Assembly: GCA_016290335.1 (NCBI GenBank)
Contig: JAEETM010000084.1
Span: 1 to 14,629, forward strand
Origin: Treponema sp.
GTDB taxonomy: Bacteria > Spirochaetota > Spirochaetia > Treponematales > Treponemataceae
Length of the DNA: 14,629 nt
Direction: 5' to 3'
The notes beneath the pieces were generated by a model. It was not told where the DNA came from. It did not search any database and saw only the letters and a program-made list of their open reading frames with translations. Each line of letters begins with the position of its first letter. Position 1 is the stretch's first letter. A program made the position numbers and the translations under genes. This document shows positions 905 to 7,550 of the stretch, one piece after another.

Positions 905-917
905 TATCTTGACTAAC

Positions 918-947
918 TTGACCAATAAAATAAAGTGATAGTATAAT
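918..947 (+). promoter_or_regulatory. Promoter of the small membrane-peptide gene
   Basis: TTGACC (918-923) and TATAAT (942-947) are separated by 18 bp. Transcription would begin about 954, at the first bases of the left inverted arm. An additional TTGACT lies at 909-914. The spacer contains GTGATA just before the -10, a feature also found in the mirror promoter on the other side of the element. Confidence 0.7.
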
Positions 948-952
948 AAAAT

Positions 953-983
953 AACACCACAGTAGTGGTAGGCTGAACCTCCG
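953..983 (+). repeat. Left arm of the inverted repeat flanking the small-peptide gene
   Basis: These 31 bases are the inverted copy of 1187-1215. Both arms, read inward, begin AACACCACAGTAGTG and end GGCTGAACCTCCG; they differ only in 2-3 bases between those blocks. The arm starts where the plus-strand transcript is predicted to start, so it forms the 5' end of that RNA. Within it ACCAC-AGTA-GTGGT can fold into a short hairpin. Confidence 0.9.
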
Positions 984-1005
984 ATTTTAAATAATGAGGA
1001 GGCCT
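970..1005 (+). promoter_or_regulatory. Predicted hairpin sequestering the Shine-Dalgarno of the small-peptide gene
   Basis: CCTCC (978-982), the end of the left arm, is complementary to GGAGG (998-1002), the Shine-Dalgarno. AGG (970-972) further pairs with CCT (1003-1005) across a 5-nt bulge, leaving a 15-nt loop. The mRNA could therefore hide its own ribosome binding site, as reported for several type I toxin mRNAs. This is a pairing seen by eye; no folding energy was computed. Confidence 0.55.
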
Positions 1006-1008
1006 GCT

Positions 1009-1131
1009 ATGACAGGATACGAAAGCATTACGCTTCTTTGTGCGATTGCGACTACCATAGTTACAATCGCATCGTTTGTCTTTGCTATACGCAAGGCGCT
1101 CGCCAAAAAAAGAAAGAAAAAACGCAAGTAG
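1009..1131 (+). CDS. Small membrane peptide, putative type I toxin (BsrG/TxpA-like)
   Basis: A 40-codon ORF beginning MTGYESITLL. Residues 7-27 form one hydrophobic helix (ITLLCAIATTIVTIASFVFA), followed by a strongly basic tail (RKALAKKRKKKRK, 28-40). The start is firm: ATG preceded by GAGGAGG with a 6-nt spacer. The layout of a short N-terminus with the motif Y-E-S, one membrane span and a lysine-rich end is that of Bacillus BsrG and TxpA and of the holin-like toxin family; BsrG begins MTVYESLM as I recall it. Such peptides insert into the membrane when their antisense RNA fails. Here the gene lies between inverted arms and converging promoters with a shared terminator, which supports that reading. 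Toxicity is inferred; it could instead be a harmless small membrane protein. Confidence 0.75.
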   Translation: MTGYESITLLCAIATTIVTIASFVFAIRKALAKKRKKKRK

Positions 1132-1138
1132 ATAAAAA

Positions 1139-1175
1139 GAAAGCCTACGCTCACTGATTCACCGCGTAGGCTTTT
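1139..1175. terminator. Bidirectional terminator shared by the peptide mRNA and the antisense RNA
   Basis: AAGCCTACGC (1141-1150) and GCGTAGGCTT (1164-1173) form a perfect 10-bp stem with a 13-nt loop. On the plus strand it is followed by TTTTAT; on the minus strand by the better U-tract TTTCTTTTTAT. It lies 9 nt after the peptide's stop codon. Confidence 0.8.
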
Positions 1176-1186
1176 ATAAGTACTTA

Positions 1187-1215
1187 CGGAGGTTCAGCCA
1201 CACTACTGTGGTGTT
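1187..1215 (-). repeat. Right arm of the inverted repeat flanking the small-peptide gene
   Basis: These 29 bases are the inverted copy of 953-983. Read on the minus strand the arm can form CCACA-GTAG-TGTGG, so a 5' hairpin is kept although the stem bases differ from the left arm. No target-site duplication is visible outside the arms. Confidence 0.9.
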
Positions 1216-1227
1216 CTTCCTTTAATA

Positions 1228-1257
1228 TTAATATATCACATCTTTTATTTAAGTCAA
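1228..1257 (-). promoter_or_regulatory. Promoter of the antisense RNA
   Basis: TTGACT (1257-1252) is followed by TATATT (1235-1230, 16-bp spacer) or TATTAA (1233-1228, 18-bp spacer). GTGATA directly precedes the -10, as in the plus-strand promoter at 918-947, so the two look like inverted copies. It fires away from pth and toward the peptide gene. Confidence 0.6.
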
Positions 1258-6887: not shown

Positions 6888-7202
6888 TTATTTCCAGATC
6901 TGTGATAAATCCATCTGTCCGCCTATAACTCTTAAAACATTTACAGTTTGATTATTTTCATCAACTGTATAAAATATAAGATAATTATCTATGGGGAAAT
7001 ATCGTAATCCTCTACTGTGCCATGGCTCTTTGGGATAAAGTCTAAATGCATTCGGTAAAGTATCTAACTGTGTAATTTCTTTTTGAAGACGAGATAACTG
7101 AGCTTCGGCATTTATAACAGATTGCTTTTCATAGGCAATATAATCATAAATATTTTGAATATCATTTATAGCTTCTGGTGATAAAATTACTTTATATGTC
7201 AA
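6888..7202 (-). CDS. RelE/ParE-family toxin of a type II toxin-antitoxin pair
   Basis: A 104-residue protein with the RelE/ParE fold pattern: the opening strand YKVILSPEAINDIQNIYDYIA, two helices, then GLRYFPIDNYLIFYTVDE and VNVLRVIGGQMD forming the antiparallel sheet. Family members either cut mRNA on the ribosome or poison gyrase; the sequence does not let me choose. The start is a TTG (7202-7200) directly abutting the antitoxin stop codon with no gap, and GAGGG in the antitoxin's last codons serves as ribosome site. A weak start after the antitoxin gene keeps antitoxin in excess. The pair precedes the ABC operon on the same strand and has no evident functional link with it. Confidence 0.88.
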   Translation of the reverse strand: MTYKVILSPEAINDIQNIYDYIAYEKQSVINAEAQLSRLQKEITQLDTLPNAFRLYPKEPWHSRGLRYFPIDNYLIFYTVDENNQTVNVLRVIGGQMDLSQIWK

Positions 7203-7505
7203 TTATTGAGCCCTCTTTATTTTTGCAAAAGCTTCGTCTGTTGCTACTCCTTCACCACGGAGAATACTTTGATATCCTTTTTCCATTTCAGCATTAAATT
7301 GTTCTTCAGTCATTTCTGAAACATTTAAAGGTTTCTGATAAGGAATCTGCACCTTAAATGGTAATCCATTATTAAGAATAATCTGTTTATAAAACATATT
7401 AATTGCCGTAGAGACTGGAATGCCTAAAGCTGCAAGGATCGCTTCTGCAGGACCTTTAGTTTCCGGTTCTATTCTAGCGTAAAGATTTGCTGTTTTTGTT
7501 GCCAT
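7203..7505 (-). CDS. RelB/DinJ-family antitoxin
   Basis: A 100-residue protein. The N-terminus TANLYARIEPETKGPAEAIL with LGIPVSTAINMFYKQII is the ribbon-helix-helix DNA-binding and dimerisation domain of RelB/DinJ antitoxins, and NNGLPFKVQIP is the usual segment after it. The C-terminal part (about 60-100) should wrap the toxin. The ATG at 7505 is chosen because AGAGG lies 5 nt upstream; the longer reading from TTG 7550 would begin inside the promoter's -35 box. Family members repress their own operon, and the promoter here holds a perfect palindrome suited to that. Confidence 0.9.
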   Translation of the reverse strand: MATKTANLYARIEPETKGPAEAILAALGIPVSTAINMFYKQIILNNGLPFKVQIPYQKPLNVSEMTEEQFNAEMEKGYQSILRGEGVATDEAFAKIKRAQ

Positions 7506-7521
7506 ATTTACCTCTAGTAAT

Positions 7522-7550
7522 AATATAAGCCATTGTACGTACAAACGCAA
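7522..7550 (-). promoter_or_regulatory. Promoter and operator of the toxin-antitoxin operon
   Basis: TTGCGT (7550-7545), 17-bp spacer, TATATT (7527-7522). The spacer contains the perfect 12-bp palindrome TTGTACGTACAA (7533-7544), exactly between the two hexamers, a natural site for the ribbon-helix-helix antitoxin to block RNA polymerase. Transcription would start near 7515, about 10 nt before the antitoxin ATG. Confidence 0.7.

Follow-up and report, generated by a model that had tools for sequence, protein, structure and literature searches.

Comparison with described systems and layout of the locus

The closest described counterparts of the locus reported here are BsrG/SR4, BsrE/SR5 and TxpA/RatA of Bacillus subtilis prophages, in which the toxin is likewise a short membrane peptide. 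In the portions of two papers available to us (PMC6562991, PMC7430163), systems of the BsrG/SR4 kind have converging RNAs that overlap at their 3' ends, a Shine-Dalgarno (SD) sequence held in 4-5 G-C pairs, and an antitoxin promoter that is the stronger of the two. The accessible part of PMC7430163 further states that SR4, by binding bsrG mRNA at its 3' end, extends the SD-sequestering helix from 4 to 8 bp, whereas RatA and SR5 leave the SD region as it is. Two other groups share features with our locus: the excerpt of PMC4147584 describes Fst/RNAII (par, pAD1) as converging RNAs with an intervening terminator, and that of PMC6733600 describes long-distance pairing of the toxin mRNA ends in AapA/IsoA of Helicobacter pylori and in hok/Sok. 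The available text of PMC12390103 places type I systems only in Proteobacteria, Firmicutes and Tenericutes before a cyanobacterial case of 2025, and reports BsrG and TxpA as non-toxic in E. coli.

We analyzed a 14,629-nt stretch of a Treponema sp. contig (the window), in which a candidate toxin-antitoxin locus extends over about 270 bases (Table 1). Judged by its sequence, this is probably a chromosomal type I toxin-antitoxin locus working like BsrG/SR4. As in systems of that kind, the two predicted RNAs converge and overlap at their 3' ends (as derived from the promoters and the hairpin T1 only), the SD can be enclosed in 4-5 G-C pairs, and the antitoxin promoter is predicted to be the stronger. 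The locus differs from them, in a comparison made without direct alignment to B. subtilis sequences, in lying on a spirochaete chromosome, in the long basic tail of its peptide, and in having repeat arms whose starts coincide with the 5' ends predicted for both RNAs. The predicted RNA lengths are about 270 and 93 nt, compared with 294 and 180 nt for BsrG/SR4.

Table 1. Features of the candidate locus (window coordinates)
Feature	Position	Strand	Evidence or remark
Predicted sigma-70 promoter of the toxin mRNA, TTGACC-N18-TATAAT	918-947	+	11/12 consensus positions
5' arm forming the leader of the toxin mRNA (15 and 13 nt separated by a GTA bulge), carrying CCUCC complementary to the SD	953-983	+	Inverted repeat, covariation
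SD, GAGGAGG	996-1002	+	6 nt upstream of ATG; GGAGG in 15/15 aligned elements
Start-codon hairpin, CCUG...CAGG	1003-1016	+	RNAalifold consensus
Toxin-like peptide ORF, 40 aa	1009-1131	+	ATG 1009, TAG 1131; direct reading and 18 homologous proteins
Predicted antisense antitoxin RNA, ~93 nt, putative ends	1131-1223	-	Antisense promoter to T1
T1 hairpin, 12-bp stem, loop of 13	1139-1175		Strong terminator in antisense direction, weak in sense direction
3' arm, complementary to the 5' arm; minus strand is the antitoxin leader	1187-1215	+	Inverted repeat, covariation, RNAalifold
Predicted antisense promoter, TTGACT-N16-TATATT, extended -10 (preceded by TG)	1230-1257	-	10/12 consensus

The 40-codon peptide gene with its strong SD, reported in the initial annotation, was read directly from the window, and the hydrophobic span and basic tail ascribed to the peptide were both present: a single hydrophobic span had a best 19-residue Kyte-Doolittle mean of 2.44 starting at residue 9, and the net charge was +9. 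BsrG and TxpA start with a Tyr-Glu-Ser motif, as does the window peptide, and M1, Y4, E5 and L9 were invariant in a wider alignment of 14 peptides. We then compared 15 complete elements (the window and 14 other loci; alignment A3), from which remnants, divergent cousins and repeat records of the same loci were excluded. The peptide ORF is evolving under purifying selection: mean pN was 0.168 and mean pS 0.342 (pN/pS 0.49) when codons 2-32 of the 15 ORFs were compared, and 101 of the 105 pairs had a pN lower than their pS. Two of the elements (L018, L020) did not start with ATG-Thr-Gly and one (L007) started with TTG. Three of the four pairs of the start-codon hairpin were kept in 15/15 elements (one of them as U-G in two elements), and the fourth in 14/15.

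Taken alone, the promoter calls in the window are weak, because 10 promoter-like sites occurred in 3 kb against 6.8 ± 2.6 in shuffled sequence. Across the 15 homologous elements, the best antisense promoter matched 10-11 of 12 consensus positions in every case (single-base shuffle mean 6.6), and the best sense promoter, located just 5' of the elements at variable spacing, matched 7-11 of 12 (single-base shuffle mean 7.2). The inward-pointing pair noted on both sides of the gene thus holds in all 15 elements, and this conservation places it above chance. In the wider set of Treponema loci, an antisense promoter with at least 10/12 matches was found in 31 of 38, compared with 3.2% of 1000 random stretches.

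The terminator scan missed T1 because its loop of 13 exceeds the limit of the scan. In the 15 elements the tract following T1 held a mean of 6.9 T in 8 positions in the antisense direction (6-7 of 8 in 15/15) and 4.9 in the sense direction. The shared bidirectional terminator proposed earlier was confirmed as a hairpin between the ORF and the antisense promoter, but its role for the mRNA is doubtful, since the T tract is strong only in the antisense direction. This asymmetry suggests that T1 acts chiefly as the terminator of the antisense RNA, with part or most of the mRNA reading through; no well-defined sense terminator was found in the window past the 3' arm. The antisense RNA of about 90 nt postulated over the mRNA 3' end agrees with the ~93 nt predicted here from the promoter and T1 only. 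A search of the window against Rfam gave 4 matches up to E 5, none at the family cut-off, and a search against NCBIfam returned no family.

Homologues in Treponema and kinship to Hol_Tox

The window peptide had 18 homologues in a set of 5.8 billion proteins. With a profile of the aligned homologues (A1), 8 loci were detected in genome contigs, every one of which carries the label Treponema; at E up to 0.01 the profile matched 19 of 274 genomes of the family. The related loci with a conserved peptide frame that the initial annotation had anticipated are thus at hand, as the purifying selection described above also attests. The window subfamily was present as a single copy in 7 of 8 genomes. Among the weaker A1 matches, L023 and L024 were remnants, L025, L026 and L028 divergent cousins, and L027 and L029 unrelated by reading. 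By eye, the remnant L023 is a 3' half beside another element, and L024 keeps the ORF end, T1 and the 3' arm.

The window peptide matched Pfam PF16935 (Hol_Tox) over nearly the whole profile at 15.2 bits; because this lies below the cut-off of 23.3 bits, we call it a relative rather than a member of Hol_Tox. The L006 peptide, which is 74% identical to it, scored 27.9 bits and so exceeded the cut-off. None of the other 6 locus peptides scanned did so, and for 5 of the 7 there was no match to Hol_Tox even at E ≤ 1. Similarly, 7 of 19 A1 members matched Hol_Tox at E up to 1 and 12 did not. Other Treponema loci (L036, L039, L040) scored 23.3-26.1 bits, thereby reaching the cut-off, with L026 below it and L025 without a match. 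Precomputed PF16935 assignments were present on P0029, P0045 (the L006 peptide) and P0078, and three Treponema proteins of the wider set (P0026, P0045, P0063) carry the NCBI name 'putative holin-like toxin', so the peptide family is not new to Treponema.

PF16935 matched in 14 of the 274 family genomes (9 above the cut-off) and, among 14 control genomes, in B. subtilis and Lactococcus lactis. Four of the PF16935 matches (L031-L033, L035) were rejected as loci of this type because on reading they looked unlike them. Across 392 genomes drawn from the phylum there were 6 matches, 4 above the cut-off; those in G367 (above the cut-off) and G401 are doubted, as their frames are 111 and 510 aa long.

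We searched the 274 genomes of the Treponema zioleckii family with a second profile (A5) built from 14 peptides of several subfamilies. Matches were obtained in at least 100 of the 274 genomes at E up to 1e-3, near-threshold matches included. Among the matches listed, 12 were in G001 (the T. zioleckii genome that holds L001) and 8 each in G074 and G227, and close pairs lay about 350-460 bases apart. On one contig of G227 (C13; L132-L135), four related peptide genes were clustered in about 5 kb.

Pairing of the mRNA ends and the predicted SD switch

An imperfect inverted repeat, overlooked in the initial annotation, lies at both predicted 5' ends. In the window its two arms are exact complements except for a GTA bulge opposite one base. 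Because the arms begin near the two predicted starts, the two RNAs share nearly one leader, and the ends of a toxin mRNA that reads through T1 could pair over 28 bp (the clamp). In the alignment of 15 elements, 95.3% of 600 cells of the clamp and T1 were paired, and RNAalifold recovered the clamp unprompted. The covariance sought across Treponema was found: 10 pairs were changed on both sides (9 in the clamp, 1 in T1) compared with 2.8 ± 1.3 in shuffles, none of 500 shuffles reached 10, and slid controls gave 0-3. The number of further pair types was not above shuffles (199/500).

We also asked in which strand the arms pair. Clamp cells with G-U numbered 30 against 7 with A-C (outer helix 28:1, inner helix 2:6) in the 15 elements, whose related sequences are not independent, and this excess supports pairing in the sense RNA. 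Whole-arm energy was neutral in the 15 core elements (sense favoured in 9/15, P = 0.41). Beyond this core, the sense strand was favoured by 35 of the 46 untied cases among a further 47 Treponema loci (P = 9e-5) and by 14 of the 17 phage loci compared (P = 8e-4), with a slight antisense lean at random positions (sense in 191 of 397 untied of 400, P = 0.047).

Paired ends also occurred outside the window subfamily. Thirteen loci drawn from several subfamilies were examined, and in 10 of them the pairing surpassed every one of 200 shuffles; in the others, 1 (L030), 3 (L042) and 89 (L037, whose 5' side looks truncated) of 200 shuffles were as good. We further sampled 40 stretches from the A5 matches (L144 being the L038 locus again), which yielded 43 distinct ORFs; 3 had incomplete flanks and 40 were tested. 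Of these, 28 had no shuffle as good and 35 at most one in 100, compared with 4 of 120 random positions. Pairing was weaker in one copy of L138 (2 of 100 shuffles as good) and in L125 and L157 (5 each). It was absent from L132 and L134 (34 and 50 of 100), which may for that reason be of a different type or decayed, and the search pattern found no ORF in L158.

A viral scan with profile A9 returned 21 loci, and tblastn of P0110 hit 10 Brevibacillus phage records at E 0.5-0.9. The five phage-locus peptides scanned scored 34.6-49.7 bits, all above the cut-off for Hol_Tox. Of the 18 distinct loci from phages, 16 had paired ends at ≤ 1/100 shuffles (L062, 2; L047, 9). The paired ends are therefore not peculiar to Treponema. 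The phage loci (L043 and L044; L045-L065 from IMG/VR) resemble the Treponema loci in their Met-Thr-x-Tyr-Glu-type peptides and paired mRNA ends, but their peptides do not have the long basic tail, and L043 and L044 have, by eye, a strong sense terminator outside the 3' arm, unlike the window. L043 and L044 are Hol_Tox genes with paired mRNA ends in the Brevibacillus phages Emery and Jimmer2, respectively, that of Jimmer2 being unannotated. Relatives of the window subfamily were absent from the viral contigs, plasmids and phages searched: no relative was confirmed in viral scans with profiles A1, A6 and A7, three queries against plasmids were all without a match, and neither the element DNA nor the L025 peptide had a match in phages.

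The leader pyrimidines could pair with the SD in 15/15 elements, as CCUCC/GGAGG in 13 and with one G-U pair in the other 2; since this helix hardly varies, covariation is no test of it. We compared predicted SD openness among full RNAs, RNAs without the leader and RNAs without the 3' arm, the last as a stand-in for occupation of that arm by the fully complementary antitoxin. The 'full' RNAs, bounded by the outermost helix, often exceeded the length predicted for the transcript, the one folded for the window measuring 344 nt; tighter ends (a 277-nt window element) gave the same clamped openness. Mean openness in the 15 elements was 0.18 for the full RNA, 0.22 without the leader and 0.04 without the 3' arm, the full RNA being more open than that without the 3' arm in 13/15. 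The 47 other Treponema loci gave 0.17, 0.16 and 0.05, respectively, with the full RNA higher in 37 of the 42 that changed. Over all 62 Treponema elements, the SD was predicted to be more open with the clamp in 50 of 57 that changed. In 17 phage loci the means were 0.12, 0.43 and 0.08 and the full RNA was higher in 8 of 9 that changed; with 0.12 against 0.43, the clamp there does not restore the leaderless state. In mRNAs ending at T1 the SD was predicted to be hidden (openness 0-0.13 in 15/15 folds).

Openness stays low in both states, and the window copy showed no switch (0.17 clamped and 0.16 without the 3' arm, although 0.07 in the form ended at T1). The fold switch is therefore a property of the set and is not shown for the window copy. 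The family folds suggest that occupation of the 3' arm by the antitoxin releases the leader, which can then sequester the SD. This resembles SR4 alone among the three B. subtilis antitoxins compared, which at the 3' end tightens SD closure (available part of PMC7430163); in Treponema the corresponding change was predicted in 13/15 elements, with the window almost unchanged.

These observations are consistent with the following mechanism. The plus-strand mRNA would encode the 40-aa membrane peptide, which probably inhibits growth when made, and the stronger convergent promoter is predicted from conserved signals to yield the ~93-nt antisense RNA ending at T1. By complementarity, CCUCC in the mRNA leader can pair with the SD. 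Once transcription passes T1, the two mRNA ends, whose pairing covaries, would join over 28 bp, and the clamp would engage the leader and leave the SD about as open as in a leaderless RNA, as predicted from the family folds. With the 3' arm occupied by the antitoxin, the leader is predicted to close the SD (arm removal serving as the stand-in), so that the antitoxin would shut off translation and may also offer a duplex to RNase III.

The same paired ends could instead follow the logic of hok and AapA, in which the full-length mRNA would be an inert precursor that 3' trimming or ending at T1 activates for translation. End pairing is known for both of those mRNAs (available part of PMC6733600), it is supported here by covariation and prediction, the clamp is strongly conserved, and the Treponema leader carries an anti-SD as AapA mRNAs have local ones. 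In the same source, however, the far end of AapA mRNA hides the SD, whereas here the 3' arm pairs with the anti-SD of the leader, and predicted openness falls rather than rises when the 3' arm is removed (13/15; 37/42 changed). We consider this explanation unlikely.

A further alternative is that the antitoxin leader, through a CCUCC of its own, binds the mRNA SD in trans and blocks ribosomes, as in Fst. Most of the leader is common to antitoxin and mRNA, the pyrimidines of the mRNA leader pair with GGAGG in every aligned element, and in Fst the two RNAs run towards a common terminator and base-pair through ribosome-blocking repeats (excerpt of PMC4147584). Only about 5 bp would be available for such a contact, the repeat is inverted rather than direct, and the 15-nt outer arm would be left without a role. 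The likeness to Fst drawn in the initial annotation fails at the direct repeats: DRa and DRb have no counterpart in the window (0 direct-repeat families in 880-1290), nor was an NCBIfam family found. Control of this kind is quite doubtful.

Genomic setting and biological meaning

The element in the window lies between genes for an O-methyltransferase and a peptidyl-tRNA hydrolase. Among 19 flanking proteins of its relatives, 13 had a Pfam family and 6 had none; the families included glycosyl hydrolase, leucyl-tRNA synthetase, pyruvate formate lyase and HAD hydrolase. A resolvase (L006) and a Phd/YefM antitoxin (L004) each occurred once, and no phage structural family was found among the 19. 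The Phd/YefM-type antitoxin gene of L004 (2019-2327, minus strand) is about 110 bases from the element. Elsewhere in the window, 6888-7550 (minus strand) holds a type II toxin-antitoxin pair of a ParE-family toxin and a RelB-family antitoxin. In L020, an apparent second, divergent element with its own promoter, GGAGG and a GTG start was seen by eye immediately behind the first, after about position 1750, which would place two types in tandem. No clean empty site was obtained, because the nearest relatives by peptidyl-tRNA hydrolase (G145, G191 and G213, 92-93%) carry other sequence to the left of that gene; in the 30 stretches examined there was no match to the left gene of the window, nor to the element.

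With many flanks being ordinary chromosomal genes and the toxicity of the peptide putative, the locus might encode a conserved, non-toxic small membrane protein whose level is tuned by the antisense RNA. The homology to Hol_Tox, the sequestration of the SD and the patchy, multicopy distribution with tandem pairs argue against this, and we regard it as improbable. A miniature transposable element with the inverted repeat as its terminal repeat, an idea prompted by the imperfect repeat at both ends and the scattered locations, is rejected as highly improbable, because the arms begin where transcription is predicted to start, on the inner side of the promoters, the repeat covaries, 7 of 8 genomes are single-copy for the subfamily, and no subfamily relative was found in the phage, plasmid and viral collections.

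The reading as a TxpA/BsrG-type toxin-antitoxin-like locus in a spirochaete, put forward in the initial annotation, stands: all 8 genome contigs hit by the peptide profile are labelled Treponema, the peptides are homologous to Hol_Tox, and the layout is conserved in 15 elements. For these reasons the best reading of the sequences is a type I toxin-antitoxin-like locus of the BsrG kind, in a phylum for which no description was found, with an unexpectedly large family behind it. The claim of an undescribed member outside the Firmicutes holds in part: the loci are in Treponema, and the titles, abstract openings and open-licence papers covered by our literature search contained no description of such a locus in Treponema or other spirochaetes, but the 'putative holin-like toxin' names at NCBI predate it.

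More tentatively, these loci may represent the first type I family of spirochaetes, multicopy in this Treponema family, in which the paired ends serve as an anti-anti-SD until the antitoxin pulls away the 3' arm and the leader sequesters the SD, silencing the toxin. Since phage Hol_Tox loci, those of Brevibacillus phages among them, show the same end pairing, this could be a common regulatory design of Hol_Tox toxins. With matches in at least 100 of 274 family genomes, the family would add a phylum to type I systems, and its conserved, covarying clamp would offer a simple, testable account of how an antisense RNA at the 3' end controls a distant upstream SD, as SR4 does on bsrG.
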